A model generated the notes under the pieces. That model was not told where the DNA came from. It saw nothing but the letters and a program-made list of their open reading frames with translations, and did not search any database. Made by a program: the position numbers and the translations under genes. Of a stretch of DNA of 32,633 bases, positions 4,979 through 19,490 are shown piece after piece. Origin of the DNA: Hydrogenophaga sp. (lineage in GTDB: Bacteria > Pseudomonadota > Gammaproteobacteria > Burkholderiales > Burkholderiaceae_C); NCBI GenBank assembly GCA_020047875.1, contig JAIFNE010000199.1, forward strand, positions 1-32,633. The letters run 5' to 3'. Position 1 is the stretch's first letter. Each line of letters starts with the position of its first letter.

Positions 4979-5471
4979 ATGGCCTCCGTCAACCGGCAAC
5001 TGCGGCCGCGATCCCGAAGTCCGTTACCTGCCCTCGGGCCAGGCGGTGGCCAATGTCAGCGTGGCCACCTCCAGCCGCCGCAAGGACAAGAACAGCGGCG
5101 AGATGATCGAAGACACCCAGTGGCACCGCGTCACCTTCTACGAGCGGCTGGCCGAGATTGCCGGCGAGTATGTGAAGAAGGGCCGCCCGATTTACGTCGA
5201 AGGCCGTCTGAAATACGGCACCTACGTGGACAAGGCCACCGGTGTGGAGAAAAACACGGTTGACATCATCGCCACCGAATTGCAGCTGCTCGGCGGCCGT
5301 GAAGGCATGGGCGGCGGCGAGGAGGGTGGCAGCGCTGGTGGCGGTGGCTACTCGCGCCCGGCCGCTGCGCCCCGCGCGCCGGCCCCCGCCCCGCAGCGCC
5401 CCGCGCCCGCGCCAGCGGCGGCACGCCCGGCCAGCGGCTTCGACGACATGGACGACGACATTCCGTTTTAG
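4979..5471 (+). pseudogene. ssb: Single-stranded DNA-binding protein, frameshifted near the start as given
   Basis: AAGGA ribosome site then ATGGCCTCCGTCAAC (MASVN), but the SSB body ([63 protein letters not shown]...) and the DDIPF tail are in another frame. Confidence 0.8.
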
Positions 5472-5521
5472 GCACCCCTTCCCCACGATGGTCACGGTCG
5501 TCCTCCCCGGACGTGACCCTT

Positions 5522-5553
5522 GACCCGCCCGGCCTCGGCCCGGCGGGTCTTTT
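5522..5553 (+). terminator. Rho-independent terminator downstream of ssb
   Basis: GACCCGCC (5522-5529) pairs with GGCGGGTC (5542-5549), followed by TTTT. Confidence 0.75.
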
Positions 5554-5578
5554 GTTGACGCGTTGTGCAGGCGGGGTG

Positions 5579-5616
5579 CTGCCATGGCCTGACATTTTTG
5601 GCAGCAGTGTCTGCCA
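5579..5616. promoter_or_regulatory. Candidate upstream activating sequence (CTGCCA / TGGCAG half-sites)
   Basis: CTGCCA 5579-5584, TGGCAG 5599-5604, CTGCCA 5611-5616; the same half-sites occur upstream of cydA (14727-14760). Confidence 0.6.
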
Positions 5617-5708
5617 GCTCGGCGGATTCGACGCCATCAACCAGATGCCTGCTGCGGCGATCCGTGCGTAAGTTATTGATTTGTCTGGACTGTTGGCCTG
5701 TGTGACGG

Positions 5709-5725
5709 CTGGCACGCTTCTTGTT
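5709..5725 (+). promoter_or_regulatory. Candidate sigma54 (-24/-12) promoter
   Basis: CTGGCACGCTTCTTGTT against consensus YTGGCACGrNNNTTGCW; mismatch at the C of the -12 GC. Confidence 0.55.
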
Positions 5726-5787
5726 GATTCTTGCTGACACGCTGGTGGGCATTCCTCCGCAGCGGTTTCGTCGAGGAAGGCAAGTTC

Positions 5788-7191
5788 ATGGACATGATTG
5801 GTCTGTATCCCACCTGGTTCGAGCCGGGCGTGGGCAGCGGCTGGATCGTTGGCTTCATCGCCACGATCCATGTGCTGTTTTCCCACACCTCGGTCGGCGC
5901 GGCGATTTTCTTCGCCTGGCTTGCCAACCACGCGCACCGCCACAACAAGCCCGAGCTGCTGGAATTCATCAAGCGTTACGGCCTGTTCCTGCTGGTGTTC
6001 AGCTACGTGCTGGGTTCCATCACCGGCCCGGGCATCTGGTATTCCACCACCGTGGCCAGTCCGCGCGGCATTTCGGCGCTGATTCACAGCTTTGTCTGGA
6101 TGTGGGCCACCGAGTGGGTGTTCTTCGTGATCGAGGTGGTGGGTGTCTACATGCTGATCTACCTGGTGGGCAAGGTCGACGTGAAGACCCACACGCGCAT
6201 CGCGCTGATCTTTGGGCTGACCTCGTACACCACCATGCTGGTGATCGTGGGCATCCTGAGCTTCATGATGTGGCCGGGCAAGGCTGCCTGGACCGAGACC
6301 GGTGGCGTGCTCAACGCCTTTTACGGTCCCAACACCTTCGCCCAGCTGGGCATGCGCACGGCCTTCATGTTCACCATGACGGCGGTGGTGGGGGGCATCG
6401 TGGCCGGCCAGTTCAAGGACCTCACGCTCAAGAAAAGCATTGCGACCAAGCTGGCCTGGCTGGGCATCGTGGCCACGCTGGTCGGTGCCGCCATGTTGCA
6501 GTGGTATCTGGCCACCTTGCCCGAGACGGCCGACGTGGTGCTGCAGAACCGCCTGCCGGCGCACTTTCCCATGGCGCTGCTGAGTGTGGTGGCGGGTACG
6601 CTGGCGTACTTCATCCTGACGCTGGTGCAGCCGCGCGCGCTGGTTTCCAGCCTGGCGGCAGTCATGACGGTGGTGATTCTGGTGTTCGGCCTCTGGCCCG
6701 AAGAGGTGGCGCGCGAGTCGATCCGCAAGCCGTGGGTGGCCGGGCAGTACGTGTATTCCAACCAGGTGATTGGCCGCGACGTGCCGGGCATGGGCGTGAA
6801 GTCCGAGATTCCCACCATCGAGGCGCACGGTTTCATGAAGACGCTGGTGTTCGTGCCCGAGGCGCTGCGCACCATCGACGATGGCAACCGCGTCGAAGTC
6901 GGTCGACTGCTGGCGCTCAACACCTGCTCCAACTGCCATTCGCTGAGCAGCACCGGCATCCGCCCGCTGCGCAACTATTTCCCCGGCACCCACACCGAGG
7001 CCGAGGTCGCGGAGTACCTGCAGGCTGCGCTTTCGGGTGGCAACACGCTGTACATGCCGCAGATCCCGTTCAACGACGCCGAGGCCCGTGCGCTCGCCAG
7101 TTTCATCCTCACGCTGCCACCTGAGCGCACTACCCGTACCGCCACGGCCACTGCGCAAGCCCCGGTCGGCGCCACCGTGGTCAAGGAGTAA
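5788..7191 (+). CDS. CydA-like (bd-type oxidase family) membrane subunit with C-terminal cytochrome c domain
   Basis: Polytopic protein with CydA-like N-terminus (GWIVGFIATIHVLFSHTSVGAAIFFAWL) and one CxxCH (NTCSNCHSL) near the C-terminus. Start placed at Met20 of the 5731 ORF because of GAGGAAGG RBS and the upstream sigma54-like element. Confidence 0.75.
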   Translation: MDMIGLYPTWFEPGVGSGWIVGFIATIHVLFSHTSVGAAIFFAWLANHAHRHNKPELLEFIKRYGLFLLVFSYVLGSITGPGIWYSTTVASPRGISALIHSFVWMWATEWVFFVIEVVGVYMLIYLVGKVDVKTHTRIALIFGLTSYTTMLVIVGILSFMMWPGKAAWTETGGVLNAFYGPNTFAQLGMRTAFMFTMTAVVGGIVAGQFKDLTLKKSIATKLAWLGIVATLVGAAMLQWYLATLPETADVVLQNRLPAHFPMALLSVVAGTLAYFILTLVQPRALVSSLAAVMTVVILVFGLWPEEVARESIRKPWVAGQYVYSNQVIGRDVPGMGVKSEIPTIEAHGFMKTLVFVPEALRTIDDGNRVEVGRLLALNTCSNCHSLSSTGIRPLRNYFPGTHTEAEVAEYLQAALSGGNTLYMPQIPFNDAEARALASFILTLPPERTTRTATATAQAPVGATVVKE

Positions 7192-7194
7192 GAC

Positions 7195-8418
7195 ATGACC
7201 CCTGAAATGCTCTACGCGCTGCGCGACCAGGCTGGCGTACCGTCCCATCCGCTGGTGTTCCTGGTGCTGGGTGTGCTCACTTTCGCGTTGCACATCGCGG
7301 CGGTGCAGGTGATGCTGGGTGCGGCCTCGCTCACGCTGCGCGGCGCCTTCAGCCCCAGCCTGCACTGGCGCCGCCTGGCCCAGGCCATGCTCGTCACGGC
7401 CAAGATCGCGGTCTCGGTCGCCATCGTGATCGGCGTGGCGCCGCTGCTGTTTGTTCAGGTGGTGTACGACCCGTTCTGGTACACGTCCAATGTGCTCTCG
7501 GCCTGGTGGGTGATCGGCTTCATCGTCCTGCTGATTGCCGGTTACATCGCGATGTATGTTTTTTACTGGAAGAACCACGACATCGTGGCAGATGGTGGTC
7601 GCGACGGCGTCTGGATGGTGCTGTCGTTGGTCTTGCTGCTGGCCGTGGGTTTCATCGTGCACAGCCTGACCAACCAGATGCTGTTCCCCGAGCACTGGAT
7701 GGCTTGGTACGCACCCCGCGGCGTGGTCAATCCCGACGGCCACTCGCTGCACTACTGGCATGTGCCACGTTTCCTTTTCTTCATCGGGTTGTCGGCTCCG
7801 GTCACTGGTGCCTGGCTCTTCGGCTACCGACGCTACCTGCAGGGTGGCGGTGAGATCGATGCCGCCTACCTGGGCTGGGTGCGTGGCCTGGCGCAAAACC
7901 TCATGCTCGTTGGTGGCGTGGTCTCGGTGCTGTTCGGGGCGGTCTGGATGCTCACCCTGCCCGAAAAGATGGCCTGGTTCGCCACGTCGGTCTGGATGCT
8001 GATGGCGCTCGTGGCGCTGCTTGCGGTGGTGGCCTTGCCGCTGGTGCTGCGCGAGCGCATCGATGCCGGCGTCTGGGGCTACGCCATCTTCGGCGCCGGT
8101 GCGGCGGGCTTGATCGTGGTGGGCGCGGCGCGCGAGATGCTGCGTTTCGTGACCCTGCTGGGCACGCACGGCTACAACGCCATGGACTACAAGATCAACA
8201 TGGACTGGTACAGCACCGGCCTGTTCTTCACCACCTTCGGCCTGGTCGGTGGTGTGACGCTGGCCTATCTGCTCACCGTGGCTTGGCAGGCCGGCCAGAG
8301 CAAGGGCCTGTACACCCCGAGCCCGGCCGTCACCCGCATTGGCCAGTGGTCGGTCGGCCTGCTCGTGGCCTGGACCGTGCTGTATTTCGCCGTTGGCTTT
8401 TTCGTCTGGGCGCGCTGA
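7195..8418 (+). CDS. Polytopic membrane protein, putative partner subunit of the bd-like oxidase
   Basis: 407 aa, many TM segments, begins 3 nt after the heme-c oxidase gene; segments such as VLTFALHIAAVQVMLGAASLTLRG. Not an obvious classical CydB. Confidence 0.65.
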   Translation: MTPEMLYALRDQAGVPSHPLVFLVLGVLTFALHIAAVQVMLGAASLTLRGAFSPSLHWRRLAQAMLVTAKIAVSVAIVIGVAPLLFVQVVYDPFWYTSNVLSAWWVIGFIVLLIAGYIAMYVFYWKNHDIVADGGRDGVWMVLSLVLLLAVGFIVHSLTNQMLFPEHWMAWYAPRGVVNPDGHSLHYWHVPRFLFFIGLSAPVTGAWLFGYRRYLQGGGEIDAAYLGWVRGLAQNLMLVGGVVSVLFGAVWMLTLPEKMAWFATSVWMLMALVALLAVVALPLVLRERIDAGVWGYAIFGAGAAGLIVVGAAREMLRFVTLLGTHGYNAMDYKINMDWYSTGLFFTTFGLVGGVTLAYLLTVAWQAGQSKGLYTPSPAVTRIGQWSVGLLVAWTVLYFAVGFFVWAR

Positions 8419-8420
8419 AC

Positions 8421-8894
8421 ATGAAACACACCGCTTCTTCCTCTGCTGCGCGGCCCGATGCCACCGTCCTGCGCAAAGTCCTGGGCTGGTCGCTGCTGGT
8501 CGCGCTGGGCGCCTCCGGGGCCGCTTCACTGGCCGTGAAGGCCGTGGCACAGACCGCGCCCAAGGCCGCAGCGCCTGCCACCGCAGCGGCGCCAGCAGCT
8601 CCCACACCCACCACCAACCCCCACCCGGCGCCCGCTTCGGTCATGGCACACAGCTGCGCTGCCTGCCACGGCACCAACGGCCAGCTGGGCGACGAGTTCT
8701 TCATGCCGCTGGCCGGCATGCCGGTGCAGCAGTTCGTGCGCACCATGACTGACTTCCGCGAAGGCCAGCGCCCGGCCACGCTCATGGGCCATGTGGCCCG
8801 TGGCTTCACCGATGCCGATCTGAGAGCCATGGGCGAGTTCTTCGCTGCCCAGACACCGCCGGATCTCACCCTTGATGCGAAAGGAACCCGGTGA
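8421..8894 (+). CDS. Monoheme cytochrome c, FccA-like (flavocytochrome c sulfide dehydrogenase cytochrome subunit)
   Basis: N-terminal TM/signal and Ala/Pro linker, then SCAACHGTNGQLGDEFFMPLAGMPVQQFVRTMTDFREGQRPATLMGHVARGFTDADLRAMGEFFA; overlaps the fccB-like gene. Confidence 0.8.
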   Translation: MKHTASSSAARPDATVLRKVLGWSLLVALGASGAASLAVKAVAQTAPKAAAPATAAAPAAPTPTTNPHPAPASVMAHSCAACHGTNGQLGDEFFMPLAGMPVQQFVRTMTDFREGQRPATLMGHVARGFTDADLRAMGEFFAAQTPPDLTLDAKGTR

Positions 8895-10249
8895 TGGTCC
8901 ACACACAACACCCTTCGCGCCGCGAATGGCTGGCCCAGGCCCTGGGTCTGCTTTCGGTCGCTGCTGCGCCCTCGCTGGCCTTCGCACAGCAGAGCGCGCA
9001 CATCGTCATCGTCGGCGGTGGCGTCGGCGGGGCCACCGCGGCCAAGTACCTCAAGCTGTTCAACCCGACGATCAAGGTCACGGTGATCGAAAAGAACCCG
9101 GTCTATGTCAAGCCCTACGGCTCCAGCGAAGTGCTTAACCAGCACGCGAAGATGGACGACCTGAACGTCAGCTATGACGCGCTGAGATCGAAGTACGGCA
9201 TCCGCTTCGTGTTCGACACCGTGACCGGTTTCGACCCGGTCACACGCACCGTGAGCACCGCGAGCCGGCAGAAGATCGGCTACGACAAGCTCATCGTTTC
9301 GCCCGGCATCCAGCTCATGTACGAGGCCTACGCCGGCTACAGCGAAGCCGTCGCCCGCACGGCCGTGCCCTCGGGCTGGATTCCCGGTGAGCAGACCGCG
9401 CTGCTGGCCAAGCAGTTGCAGGGCATGCGTGCCGGCGGCACCTTCGTGCTGGCTGCACCACCCAACCCCTACCGCTGCCCGCCCGGCCCGTACGAGCGCG
9501 CCGCGCTCATGACCGAGTGGTTCAGCAAGCACAACCCAACGGCCAAGGTCGTCATCGTCGACCCGAAGGACAGCTTCGTGACCGACGAGACCATGATGCT
9601 TGGCTGGAACCGGCTGTACAACTTCAACCTGCCCGAGGACTACGTCAAGAAGATGTCCGCCGAGGTGGAGGTCAAACAGCACAGCGTCACCAGCATGCTC
9701 AGCTGGGTGCGTGGCAAGGACGGTGGCCGCACGCTGAAGATCGATGCCCGGCAGATGCGCATTGAGACCGAGGCCGAGGTGATCCAGGCCGATGTGATCA
9801 ACGTCATTCCACCCATGAAGGCGGGCCAGGTCGCCATGACGCTGGGCCTGGCCGACGGCAGCGGCTTCTGCCCGGTGGACCGCCGCACGTTTGCCTCCAC
9901 GCTGCAGCCCAACGTGTACGTGATTGGCGACGCCAGCATCGCCGATGCCATGCCCAAGAGCGGCTTTTCGGCCAACACCCAGGCCAAGGTGGTGGCGCGC
10001 GCCATCGTTGAAGAACTGGCTGGCCGCACCGCGCCGGAGCCGCTGTGGGAGAACACCTGCTACGCCCTCGCCGGCAAGGACTACGGCCTCTTCGTGGCCG
10101 ATGTGTTCAAGATCATCGACGGCAAGATTGCCCGCATCAATGGCCAGGGCCGCTACCTGCCGCTGAACGCCACGCCGGCGCAGATCAAGCTGGGCGCGCG
10201 CTATCAGCAGGCCTGGCTGCGAACCTTCACCGCCGACTGCTTTGCCTGA
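8894..10249 (+). CDS. fccB: Flavocytochrome c sulfide dehydrogenase flavoprotein subunit (FccB/SoxF-like)
   Basis: Tat-type leader (SRREWLAQALGLLSVAAAPSLAFA), FAD-binding IVIVGGGVGGATAAKYL, both family cysteine motifs (PYRCPPGPYERA and GFCPVDRRTF). Confidence 0.9.
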   Translation: MVHTQHPSRREWLAQALGLLSVAAAPSLAFAQQSAHIVIVGGGVGGATAAKYLKLFNPTIKVTVIEKNPVYVKPYGSSEVLNQHAKMDDLNVSYDALRSKYGIRFVFDTVTGFDPVTRTVSTASRQKIGYDKLIVSPGIQLMYEAYAGYSEAVARTAVPSGWIPGEQTALLAKQLQGMRAGGTFVLAAPPNPYRCPPGPYERAALMTEWFSKHNPTAKVVIVDPKDSFVTDETMMLGWNRLYNFNLPEDYVKKMSAEVEVKQHSVTSMLSWVRGKDGGRTLKIDARQMRIETEAEVIQADVINVIPPMKAGQVAMTLGLADGSGFCPVDRRTFASTLQPNVYVIGDASIADAMPKSGFSANTQAKVVARAIVEELAGRTAPEPLWENTCYALAGKDYGLFVADVFKIIDGKIARINGQGRYLPLNATPAQIKLGARYQQAWLRTFTADCFA

Positions 10250-10259
10250 AGGAACGCAC

Positions 10260-11048
10260 ATGCAACACGATCCCTACCTGCAAGAGCTGACCGCCGTGAC
10301 GAACGGCCTGTTTCATCGCGCCCGGGTGGCCTTGGCCATCGGCGTGACGGGGCTGCTCATGGGCCTGGCGGCCGACCCGGCCCACGCCACCGACCACGCG
10401 GCCGCACCGTCGGCCAAGGCCTGGACCCCTGCCAGCCTGCGCGGCGCGCTGGCGGCCCTGCCCAAAGGCGATGCCGAACGCGGCCGCGTGGTCAACCAGC
10501 AGCTGTTCTGTGCCTCTTGCCACGGTGAAAACGGCGTGGCGCCGACGCAGAACTGGCCCCATCTGGCCGGCCAGAAAGCCGCTTACACCGCCAAGATGTT
10601 GCTTGACTATCAGAGCCGCTTGCGGCTCGAGGGCAAGCGGGCCGAGCTGATGCACAACATCGCCGTGATGCTGACGCCGCAACAGATCGCCGATGTGTCG
10701 GCGTTCTACGCCAGCCTGCCGGCGCCCGGTGACGATGGCACGCCACGCCCGCCCCCCCGCGGGGAAGGCATGAGCGCCGCGCAGCTGGTTCGCAAGGGTG
10801 ACCCCGCACGCCTGCTCACGCCTTGCGCCAGCTGCCATGGCGTGAAAGGTCAGGGCGGCAAGCTCGAAGCCTCGGCCCTGGCCGGACAGAACCCGCTGTA
10901 CTTCACCCGCACCTTGCTCGATTACCAGAGCGGCGTGCGCGCGAACGACGCGGCCAAGGGCATGAGCACGTTTGCGAAAAAGCTCACGCGCGGTGAGATC
11001 GAGGCGCTGGCGGCCTACTACGCCGATCTGCCCTCACGCAACCAGTAA
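10260..11048 (+). CDS. Diheme cytochrome c (c4-like)
   Basis: Signal-like N-terminus; two CASCHG heme-c motifs (FCASCHGENGVAP and PCASCHGVKGQGG). Confidence 0.85.
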   Translation: MQHDPYLQELTAVTNGLFHRARVALAIGVTGLLMGLAADPAHATDHAAAPSAKAWTPASLRGALAALPKGDAERGRVVNQQLFCASCHGENGVAPTQNWPHLAGQKAAYTAKMLLDYQSRLRLEGKRAELMHNIAVMLTPQQIADVSAFYASLPAPGDDGTPRPPPRGEGMSAAQLVRKGDPARLLTPCASCHGVKGQGGKLEASALAGQNPLYFTRTLLDYQSGVRANDAAKGMSTFAKKLTRGEIEALAAYYADLPSRNQ

Positions 11049-13315: not shown

Positions 13316-14701
13316 TCAGGATGCCGGGGGCATGTTTGTCGAATCCAGCGACTTGATTTTTCGGTACAGCGAGCGCTCGCTGATGCCCATCTTGGCCGCC
13401 AGTTCGGCCCGGCTACCGGTGTGCGCCGCGAGCGTCGCGCGCAGGGCGGTTTGTTCCAGGGCCTTGAAATCGGTCACCGATCCCGCGGGATTGTCGGTGG
13501 TCAAGGCCGCCGATGGCCGTTGGGCCGGCGGGCGGGTGGTACCAGCCGGGCGGCGGCCGGTGTCGATGGCCCGCTGCACATGCTCGGCCTCGATCAGGTC
13601 GCCGTCACACAGCAGTGCGGCGCGTTCCAGCAAATTGCGCAGCTCGCGCACATTGCCGGGGAACGCTTGCGCGCTGAGCAGTCTCAGAGCCGAGGTGCTC
13701 AGGCGCAGGTGGCGCGGCGCTGCCACACGCTCCAGCAGCGAGGGCGCCAACAGCGTCACATCGCCTGCCCGATCGCGCAGGCTGGGCAACCGGATCGGAA
13801 ATATCGATAGCCGGTAGTAGAGGTCCTCTCGGAAGCGGCCGTCTGCCACCATCTGGTCCAGGTCGCGGTGGGTGGCCGAGACGACGCGGATGTCGGCATG
13901 GCGCAGCTCGGTGCTGCCCACGCGGCGGTAAGTGCCCGTCTCCAGCAGGCGCAGCAACTTGACCTGCATGGGCAGCGGGATGTCCCCGACCTCGTCCAGA
14001 AACAGCGTACCGCCGCTGGCCGCCTCCACCAGCCCGCCCTTGGCGGCGTTGGCGCCGGTGAATGCGCCACGCTCATGGCCGAAGAGTTCGGATTCGAACA
14101 GGGTCTCGGGCAGGCTGGAGCAGTCCACCGCCACCAGCGGCTTGCCCGCGCGCGGACTCGCCTCGTGCAGGGCCCGCGCCACCAGCTCCTTGCCAGTGCC
14201 GGATTCGCCGAGCAGCAAAACGGTGGCGCGCGAGGGTGCGGCCCGCGCCACCAGGGCCAGCATGGCCTGAAACGCCTCCGACCGCCCGATCAGTCCCTGT
14301 GCTGCCGGTTGGCCCTGGGCCACGCGCAGCGGCTCCATCTTTTCCACGAAGAATGCGGGCTCACCGTCGGGGCCTGGCAAGGGCGAGAGCTCGATGTTCA
14401 CGTATTCCTCGCCTTGGGTGGTGTGGTGCAGGTGCAGCACACGCTCGCGCTGGCGCGAGGCGAGCGACCGCGCCAGCGGGCAGGACTCCCCGGCCTGATC
14501 GCAGGGCACTGAAAAGTGGTGCGAGACCTCGTAGCAGGTGCGGCCGACCACATCGCGCTGGCCGCCATAGGCGCGCCGATACGCCGCGTTCGCAGCGAGG
14601 ATGCGGTACCGCGCATCGAAGAGGATGTGCGGTTCGGGCAGGCCTTCGAGAAAGGCCGTGAGTTCGGGCAGGGGTTTCAATGCGGGTTCCTGGGCAGGCA
14701 A
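13316..14701 (-). CDS. Sigma54-dependent transcriptional activator, FisR-like (PAS-type sensor + AAA+ + Fis HTH)
   Basis: GESGTGKE Walker [14 protein letters not shown] (sigma54-interaction GAFTGA), C-terminal HTH ([21 protein letters not shown]); N-terminal domain with C56, C67 and C74 ([22 protein letters not shown]). Confidence 0.9.
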
Positions 14702-14726: not shown

Positions 14727-14760
14727 CTGCCAAAAATGGCAGTTTTGGCGGAAGTGGCAG
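14727..14760. promoter_or_regulatory. Candidate upstream activating sequence array (CTGCCA / TGGCAG)
   Basis: CTGCCA-AAAA-TGGCAG (14727-14742), TGGCGG (14746-14751), TGGCAG (14755-14760); between the activator gene and cydA. Confidence 0.6.
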
Positions 14761-14826
14761 AGCGGGCTCTGACGGGTCTTCGCTCAACACCTTTGATTCC
14801 ATTGCACTTATCCGCCTGCGGTCGCG

Positions 14827-14842
14827 CGGCACGGATCTTGAT
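14827..14842 (+). promoter_or_regulatory. Candidate sigma54 (-24/-12) promoter of the cydAB cluster
   Basis: CGGCACGGATCTTGAT; GG-N10-GA spacing, matches GGCACG-N4-TTG as upstream of 5788. Confidence 0.5.
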
Positions 14843-14951: not shown

Positions 14952-16364
14952 ATGTTTGACTTACCCGATGCCCTGCTGCTGGCGCGAATCCAGTTCGCGT
15001 TCACGGTGAGTTTTCACTTCCTGTTCCCGGCGATCACCATTGGCCTGGCCAGTTACCTGGCGGTGCTCGAAGGCCTGTGGCTGAAGACTGGTCGCGAGGA
15101 CTACATGAACCTGTTCCGTTACTGGATCAAGATTTTTGCGCTCGTGTTTGCCATGGGCGTGGTCTCGGGCATCGTGATGTCCTATCAGTTCGGCACCAAC
15201 TGGGCGGTGTTCTCCGACAAGGCCGGGCCCATCATCGGGCCGCTGATGGCCTATGAGGTGCTGACCGCTTTCTTCCTGGAGGCCGGTTTTCTGGGCGTGA
15301 TGCTGTTTGGCATGAGCCGTGTGGGCAAACGCCTGCACTTCATCGCCACGCTGATGGTGGCCTTGGGTACCTTCGTCTCGGCGTTCTGGATTCTCTCGGT
15401 CAACAGCTGGATGCAGACCCCGTCGGGCTACGCGATCAACGCCAATGGCCAGTTCATTCCAGCAGGCAGCTGGATCGACATCATTTTTAACCCCAGCTTT
15501 CCCTACCGGCTGGTGCACACCCTCTCTGCTGCTTACCTGACCACCGCGTTCTTGGTGGGGGCGGTCGGTGCCTGGCATCTGTTGAAAGACCGCGCCAACC
15601 CGCGCGCGCGCCTCATGTTTTCGATGGCGATGTGGATGGCAGCCATCGTGGCACCGCTGCAGATCGTGTTGGGCGACATGCACGGGCTCAACACGCTGGA
15701 GCACCAGCCGGTGAAGGTCATGGCCATGGAAGGCCACTACCAGAGCCACCCGGAAGGTGCGCCGCTGATCCTGTTCGGGGTTCCCAACAGCGCTGAAGGG
15801 CGGGTCGACTACGCGGTGGAAATCCCGAAACTGTCCTCCCTCATTCTCAAACACGATCTCAACGCACCCATGAACGGACTCGACACGGTTCCCGTGGCCG
15901 ACCACCCGCCGGTGGGCATGGTGTTCTGGGCCTTTCGCATCATGGTCGGGTTGGGTTTTCTCATGGCTGGGTTGGGCTTGCTCAGCCTGTGGGCGCGTGC
16001 CCGGGGCCGGCTGTACGAGTGGAAGTGGTTGCATCGCTTTGCCCTGGTCATGGGCCCCTCGGGCCTGATCGCGGTGCTCGCGGGCTGGATCACCACCGAG
16101 GTGGGCCGCCAGCCCTGGACCATCCAGGGCCTGATGCGCACGGTCGAGTCGGCTTCACCGCTGGCGGCACCTGCTGTGGCGGCGTCGCTGGTGGCCTTTG
16201 TGGTCGTTTACTTCGCGGTCTTCGGTGCCGGGGTGCTCTACATCCTGAAGCTGATGGCCAAGCCGCCGGGGGTGCACGAGTCGGCCCCGCCCAACATCCC
16301 CGCGCGCGCTGCTGGCACGACACCCGCCGTGGCGCTGCGCCCCGACGCCATCGCCACCGAATAA
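14952..16364 (+). CDS. cydA: Cytochrome bd ubiquinol oxidase subunit I (CydA/CioA type)
   Basis: LARIQFAFTVSFHFLFPAITIGLASYLA, FGTNWAVFSDKAGPIIGPLMAYEVLTAFFLEAGFLG, GWITTEVGRQPWTIQG; AAGGA RBS. Confidence 0.95.
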   Translation: MFDLPDALLLARIQFAFTVSFHFLFPAITIGLASYLAVLEGLWLKTGREDYMNLFRYWIKIFALVFAMGVVSGIVMSYQFGTNWAVFSDKAGPIIGPLMAYEVLTAFFLEAGFLGVMLFGMSRVGKRLHFIATLMVALGTFVSAFWILSVNSWMQTPSGYAINANGQFIPAGSWIDIIFNPSFPYRLVHTLSAAYLTTAFLVGAVGAWHLLKDRANPRARLMFSMAMWMAAIVAPLQIVLGDMHGLNTLEHQPVKVMAMEGHYQSHPEGAPLILFGVPNSAEGRVDYAVEIPKLSSLILKHDLNAPMNGLDTVPVADHPPVGMVFWAFRIMVGLGFLMAGLGLLSLWARARGRLYEWKWLHRFALVMGPSGLIAVLAGWITTEVGRQPWTIQGLMRTVESASPLAAPAVAASLVAFVVVYFAVFGAGVLYILKLMAKPPGVHESAPPNIPARAAGTTPAVALRPDAIATE

Positions 16365-16374
16365 GGGGAGCCTC

Positions 16375-17379
16375 ATGAACATCGATCTGACCCTCATCTG
16401 GGCCCTCATCATCATGGTGGCCGTCTTCATCTACGTGGTGCTTGACGGCTTTGACCTGGGCATTGGCATCCTGTTCAACACCTTCGAGGTGGGCCACGAC
16501 CGCGACACTGCGATGAACAGCATCGCGCCGGTGTGGGATGGCAACGAGACTTGGCTGGTGATGGGTGGCGGGGGTTTGCTCGCGGCATTTCCACTGGCCT
16601 ACGGTCTGATTTTCTCTGCGCTGTATGCGCCCATCATCGCCATGCTGCTGGCGCTGGTGTTTCGTGGCGTGGCGTTCGAATTCCGCTGGCGCGACCCGGC
16701 CCACCGAGGCTTCTGGGACCTGGCTTTCACCGGTGGATCACTGCTGGCCGCGTTCGCGCAAGGCGTCATCCTGGGCGCACTGCTGCAAGGTGTGGCCATC
16801 AGCGAGCGGGCGTACGCCGGCGGCTGGTGGGACTGGCTCACGCCCTTTTCGCTGCTCACCGGTGCGAGTGTGGTGGTTGCCTATGCACTGCTGGGTGCCA
16901 CCTGGCTGGTGATGAAGACCGAGGGTACGTTGCAACGCCAGGCCCGTTCCATGGCCTGGTGGCTGGGTGCTGCCACGCTGGCGGCCATCGTCGCGGTCAG
17001 CATCGCCACCTTGTTCCTCAGCGCCGACTACTTCAGGAACTGGTTGAACTGGCCCAATGTCCTGTGGGTGGCACCGGTGCCGGTGCTGGTGGCATTGGCC
17101 AGCCTGGCCTTTGTGCGCAGCCTCAAAGCGGGGCAAGAGACGGCGCCCTTCCTGCTGGTGCTGGGCGTCTTCCTGTTGTGCTTCGTGGGTCTGGGCATCA
17201 GCGTCTTCCCCTACATCGTGCCGGGAGCGGTCACGATCTGGGACGCAGCCACCGACCGAAGCGGGCAGGTCTTCATGCTCTGGGGCACAGCCCTGGTGTT
17301 GCCGATGATTCTGGGCTATACGGCCTGGTCGTACTGGGTGTTCCGCGGCAAGGTGACTTCGGACGGATACCACGCATGA
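16375..17379 (+). CDS. cydB: Cytochrome bd ubiquinol oxidase subunit II (CydB/CioB)
   Basis: VVLDGFDLGIGILF...IAPVWDGNETWLVMGGGGLLAAFPLAYGLIFSALYAP. Confidence 0.95.
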   Translation: MNIDLTLIWALIIMVAVFIYVVLDGFDLGIGILFNTFEVGHDRDTAMNSIAPVWDGNETWLVMGGGGLLAAFPLAYGLIFSALYAPIIAMLLALVFRGVAFEFRWRDPAHRGFWDLAFTGGSLLAAFAQGVILGALLQGVAISERAYAGGWWDWLTPFSLLTGASVVVAYALLGATWLVMKTEGTLQRQARSMAWWLGAATLAAIVAVSIATLFLSADYFRNWLNWPNVLWVAPVPVLVALASLAFVRSLKAGQETAPFLLVLGVFLLCFVGLGISVFPYIVPGAVTIWDAATDRSGQVFMLWGTALVLPMILGYTAWSYWVFRGKVTSDGYHA

Positions 17380-19100: not shown

Positions 19101-19490
19101 ATGAAGCAGCTGCATTTCCAGGAAAAGTACCCCATCACTGTGGTCGACATCGCCAAGGCCGAAACCCGGTTCGAGAGCGCAGCCGCCATTGCCGATTACT
19201 TCAAGGCCTGCATCGCCGACACGCCTCGCGTCCAGTACATCGCCACCTTCGATCACTTGGCCCATACCCAGGCCATCGGTGGCGATGTCTCCCCTCAGAT
19301 CCAGGCCGCCATGAACGTGGTGTTCTGCTTCGGCCATGCGCTACCCAACCCGCAGGTTCTGGCGGTGCGTCCGCGCAGCATCGGTGTTGCCGACATGGGC
19401 GACCATTTCGTCATCAGCTTCATGGACGCACCCATGAAGCCTGCCAACGATGCCATGCAAGCGTGGGCCCTGGCCCTGCGGAACCGGTGA
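19101..19490 (+). CDS. Conserved protein of unknown function (possibly DUF6858)
   Basis: 129-aa ORF with good gene spacing; family name from memory only. Confidence 0.6.
   Translation: MKQLHFQEKYPITVVDIAKAETRFESAAAIADYFKACIADTPRVQYIATFDHLAHTQAIGGDVSPQIQAAMNVVFCFGHALPNPQVLAVRPRSIGVADMGDHFVISFMDAPMKPANDAMQAWALALRNR

Follow-up and report, generated by a model that had tools for sequence, protein, structure and literature searches.

A probable FisR-controlled sigma54-type promoter upstream of a flavocytochrome c sulfide dehydrogenase operon in Hydrogenophaga sp.

Transcription of the sulfide oxidase operon of this Hydrogenophaga sp. very probably starts at a sigma54 promoter that is enhancer-dependent and regulated by FisR, whose gene lies on the same 32,633-nucleotide stretch of DNA, called here the window. 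The main operator (UAS) is a FisR-type dyad, CTGACA-TTTT-TGGCAG (CTGACATTTTTGGCAG; 5589-5604, plus strand), with its centre 113 bp ahead of the TGG of the core, at about -140. A second half-site, CTGCCA, follows at 5611-5616 (plus strand) and is kept in orthologous promoters, being CTGCCA or CTGTCA in all eight. The sigma54-type core, TGGCACGCTTCTTGTT, occupies 5710-5725 (plus strand): TGGCACG at 5710-5716, conserved in the orthologues, contains the GG of the -24 element (5711-5712), TTG at 5721-5723 stands at -15 to -13 with fixed spacing to this GG, and GT at 5723-5724 forms the -13/-12 positions. The dyad co-occurs with fisR and is probably the upstream enhancer for an AAA+ activator. The transcription start is predicted at about 5736, and a terminator-like hairpin with a T-run (5537-5549, plus strand) lies between the 3' end of ssb and the promoter. 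An earlier note on this DNA had reported CTGCCA at 5579 and 5611, TGGCAG at 5599 and CTGGCACGCTTCTTGTT at 5709-5725, exactly where we found them, and had proposed a sigma54-type core with an enhancer for the activator beside cydA; conservation of core, dyad and spacing, together with the co-occurrence with fisR, supports that proposal. Its pairing of the half-sites at 5579 and 5599 was wrong, because 5579 is not conserved in orthologues; the operator is the 16-bp dyad plus one more half-site.

CTGCCA alone is not enriched (38 occurrences in the window versus 39.9 expected), and a lone half-site is therefore no evidence. The combination that stands out from chance is the 16-bp dyad CTGNCA-N4-TGNCAG located about 90-115 bp ahead of a TGGCACG-N4-TTG core. 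Only two such dyads are present in the window, at 5589-5604 and 14727-14742, and these precede the two best-scoring cores by 113 and 92 bp, respectively; two or more dyad-core pairs arose in 1 of 100 dinucleotide shuffles of the window. The available 2.25 Mb of the genome, which is 59.5% complete, holds eight such palindromes, the window's two included, and no comparable core was found at the other six. Helical phasing of the dyad-core distances (60, 69, 83, 92, 103, 106 and 113 bp) was only suggestive and was set aside, with p values of 0.03-0.06 at periods of 10.5-11 and 0.37 at a period of 10.0.

The second dyad, CTGCCA-AAAA-TGGCAG (CTGCCAAAAATGGCAG; 14727-14742, plus strand), lies ahead of cydA, its centre 92 bp before a sigma54-type core with A at -12 (CGGCACGGATCTTGAT; 14827-14842, plus strand), and an additional half-site, TGGCAG, is found at 14755-14760 (minus strand). 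The genes that follow, cydA and cydB (14952-17379, plus strand), encode cytochrome bd oxidase. The earlier note had held that half-sites and core match those upstream of cydA; the dyads do match, but the two cores are similar rather than identical. In another locus (L249), a gene for a 59-residue membrane protein, perhaps a small bd-oxidase subunit, is located between the FisR-type promoter and cydA. A DUF6858 protein is encoded at 19101-19490 of the window, 3' of cydAB and of the Rieske and metallo-beta-lactamase genes, and a Gallionellaceae genome (L063) has one close to fisR-cydAB as well.

The gene divergent from cydAB (13316-14701, minus strand) encodes a protein with PAS_4, Sigma54_activat and HTH_8 domains and a C-x10-C-x6-C sensor motif. 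Judged by its sequence, this activator is a FisR-type sigma54 activator: it has the sigma54 interaction domain with GAFTGA, a Fis-type HTH, and three N-terminal cysteines in the 53/64/71 arrangement, here beginning at C56. The cysteine motif is kept in 59 of 59 relatives, a set collected in part with a pattern containing the first cysteine, and the orthologue of Cupriavidus metallidurans CH34, 51% identical, has Cys53, Cys64 and Cys71. A divergent pdo/sqr pair, which accompanies the characterised fisR genes but does not enter into the definition of the protein, is absent from this position, cydAB being divergent and fccB lying in a second operon; in many beta- and gammaproteobacterial loci, fisR adjoins cydAB. 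Inspection by eye of the translations from the C. metallidurans locus revealed a metallo-beta-lactamase-fold protein, which we read as a likely persulfide dioxygenase (PDO), a protein like sulfide:quinone reductase (SQR) and a TauE-like exporter, and the locus also carries CTGCCA/TGGCAG half-sites and a core, TGGCACGGGTTTTGAG, with A at -12. We did not find rpoN in the host genome, at its 59.5% completeness; the gene is present in 34 of 34 near-complete relatives.

Phylogenetic footprinting, which the earlier note had suggested as a check, showed that orthologous promoters conserve core, dyad and spacing. The P1 proteins (P1 being the first gene of the operon) are 91-95% identical in the orthologous loci L032-L037, and eight P1 promoters have in common the dyad, its companion half-site, an IHF-like site and a core that hardly varies, with the dyad centre 112-115 bp ahead of TGG and the IHF-like site at -41/-40. 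Pairwise identity among P1 promoters is 94% for the 14-bp core, 52% for the IHF 13-mer and 27% for the spacer. The fisR-divergent promoters have the same set of parts, with the dyad mostly at 91-94 bp. We then scanned 67 genomes of the Hydrogenophaga-like genus for a dyad followed after 80-110 bp by TGGCA, and scored the cores. The matches were mainly fisR-divergent, cydAB, bc1-Rieske and sulfide-operon promoters. At least 25, filtered from part of the 72 listed matches, had a core score of at least 11, and all but two of those listed lay ahead of respiratory or sulfur genes, the exceptions being one overlapping false locus, counted twice (L213/L256), that lacks a proper core. Targets listed at this score encode P1, two cydA types, a small protein 5' of cydA, a Rieske protein, a metallo-beta-lactamase-fold protein and a multihaem cytochrome c, and some of them are on contigs other than that of fisR (L212 and L250). 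In one member of the genus (L210), a fisR-divergent FisR-type promoter precedes a multihaem c-type cytochrome gene.

Promoters of the strict form were present in 9 of 17 genomes with FisR versus none of 24 without it (Fisher p 7e-5, for genomes that are not phylogenetically independent), and dyad and core were both absent from five P1 operons in FisR-less genomes of another family. One genome of the genus has FisR and a divergent P1 without the promoter, and no clear FisR-type promoter was seen at P1 of Limnohabitans sp. Bal53 (L051), in which fisR, DUF3422, cytochrome c4, FccB, cytochrome c, P2 and P1 genes form one block. With six matches to further sigma54 activators in the sequenced part of the host genome (59.5% complete), the dyad might be read by a different enhancer-binding protein at a promoter that is still sigma54-dependent, FisR regulating something else nearby. 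We regard this as quite unlikely, since the strict promoter is confined, among the genomes tested, to those with full-length FisR and in most cases is the very one divergent from fisR, and since the same type of half-site occurs at the Cupriavidus FisR-PDO-SQR locus.

Between operator and core, an IHF-like site that the earlier note had overlooked matches the reverse complement of WATCAANNNNTTR perfectly (9/9; 5669-5681, minus strand), 41 bp ahead of TGG and at an offset fixed in orthologues. A weaker site (7/9; 14786-14798, minus strand) has the same offset of -41 ahead of the cydA core. IHF-like matches of at least 8/9 at offsets from -43 to -38 were found in 14 of the 29 promoters of the host's family; 500 runs of shuffled controls averaged 0.08 and never exceeded 2 of 29. 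In other proteobacteria, 10 of 27 promoters had the site at an equal offset (0.27 expected), some of those outside the host's family in the opposite orientation.

In place of the C of the canonical GC at -12, the sulfide operon core has T (5724), which the earlier note had considered to weaken the match. We found that this is instead a conserved property: with cores located without using the -12 position, none of the 29 promoters of the host's family has C (G in 12, A in 10 and T in 7), so that GT is not a chance deviation, while C is found in 19 of 27 promoters outside the family. The base tracks the promoter class within the host's family, being T before P1 in all cases, A ahead of the window's cydA type and mostly G at the others. 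Sigma54 sites of Salmonella mapped by ChIP-chip include T in pspA (TGGCACGCAAATTGTATT) and A in STM0649.S (TGGCACGCCTTTTGATTA) (PMC3844500), indicating that C at -12 is preferred but not absolute; the E. coli pspF-pspA intergenic stretch contains a sequence identical to the Salmonella pspA site. In 150 genomes of the order, TGGCACG-N3-YTTG followed by C or by another base exceeded the reversed-pattern control modestly in both cases with no clear difference, and we therefore make no claim of changed sigma54 specificity. It is a tentative and rather doubtful idea that, in the cores of the FisR regulon, -12 is a selected tuning position that is never C, is fixed by class (T, A or G) and sets leakiness or strength. 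A search that insisted on GC at -12 would overlook this regulon entirely. In several Hydrogenophaga-like genomes (L151, L153-L156 and L158), a further apparent sigma54-type core that has no C at -12, TGGCACGGAACTTGT, is conserved just ahead of a gene whose product resembles a TonB-dependent receptor at its start.

The GT at -12, with canonical GC in no family member, could also be taken to mean that the likeness to TGGCACG-N4-TTG is incidental, that most transcription starts at a sigma70-type promoter which has escaped recognition and that the dyad serves a classical activator or repressor. This is very unlikely: no sigma70-type match was found in 5400-5850, with a scanned consensus that may differ from the host's own, the 14-bp core of P1 promoters is far better conserved than their spacer, and the mapped Salmonella sites, with which the E. 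coli stretch agrees, accommodate T or A. That all of these matches are a coincidence in GC-rich DNA, a view to which the ordinary frequency of CTGCCA lends itself, is extremely improbable and already disfavoured by the dyad-plus-core pairing, the conservation and the co-occurrence with FisR.

The operon downstream owes its label to FccB, the flavoprotein of flavocytochrome c sulfide dehydrogenase (8891-10249; PF21706, PF09242). It begins with P1 (5788-7191), a polytopic membrane protein with a C-terminal c-haem domain (CSNCH), and P2 (7195-8418), a partner membrane protein whose gene follows P1 in the examined loci; a small c-type cytochrome (8415-8894) precedes FccB and a c4-like dihaem cytochrome c (10242-11048) follows it, all on the plus strand. 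P1 and P2 had no match in Pfam or NCBIfam, only the c-haem tail of P1 resembles a solved protein, and the AlphaFold model of P1, with a pLDDT of 48.6, is too poor to be of use. Relationship of P1 to CydA was considered and rejected, the profile comparison giving a probability of 1.5%. The P1-P2 pair is conserved, being present as well in a second, FisR-less family of Burkholderiales, and is possibly an undescribed membrane cytochrome complex.

From elements, conservation, spacing and co-occurrence with fisR, all of them read in DNA sequence, we infer binding, bending and sigma54 dependence as follows. FisR (13316-14701, minus strand) would bind as dimers to the dyad at 5589-5604 and the half-site at 5611-5616, and IHF would bend the DNA at 5669-5681. 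If the inducer is the one known for Cupriavidus FisR, sulfane sulfur (persulfide or polysulfide arising from sulfide) would modify the three N-terminal cysteines and turn on the AAA+ ATPase, whose GAFTGA loop would remodel RNA polymerase-sigma54 at 5710-5725, so that transcription of the P1-P2-cytochrome c-fccB operon would begin near 5736. An equivalent arrangement would drive cydAB, and sulfide would therefore induce its own oxidation together with an oxidase that tolerates it. Haem-copper oxidases are inhibited by sulfide, and cytochrome bd resists it. In the presence of sulfide, E. coli can go on respiring by means of cytochrome bd (Forte 2016 and Korshunov 2016, as cited in PMC9774590). 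The proposed regulon would link a persulfide sensor directly with two ways in which respiration responds to sulfide, the operon for a periplasmic sulfide dehydrogenase and cytochrome bd, and it provides an exact, testable operator motif, CTGNCA-N4-TGNCAG. In the literature searched, we found no paper tying FisR to cytochrome bd expression.

Among known systems, PspF-pspA of E. coli and Salmonella is similar in that the activator gene lies divergent from its target and the promoter has TGGCACG at -24 with T at -12. PspF, however, has no sensory domain, responds to a membrane-stress signal and uses an operator sequence other than the FisR-type dyad. FisR of Acinetobacter baumannii (PMC7315123) is likewise a sigma54 activator of a sulfide-detoxification operon, divergent in that organism, but its targets are pdo, sqr and tauE, and the three regulatory cysteines are missing from it. 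In Cupriavidus pinatubonensis JMP134, FisR controls sulfide-oxidation genes that depend on sigma54 (Li et al. 2017, as described in PMC9495516, PMC9774590 and PMC12170894) and forms a Cys53-Cys64 tetrasulfide (PMC9495516): the Hydrogenophaga protein has the same three cysteines in the 53/64/71 arrangement and would likewise exert sigma54-dependent control of sulfide oxidation. Instead of pdo-sqr, however, the Hydrogenophaga FisR is predicted to act on a flavocytochrome c sulfide dehydrogenase operon and on cydAB, and the sulfide operon includes an unclassified membrane cytochrome pair.
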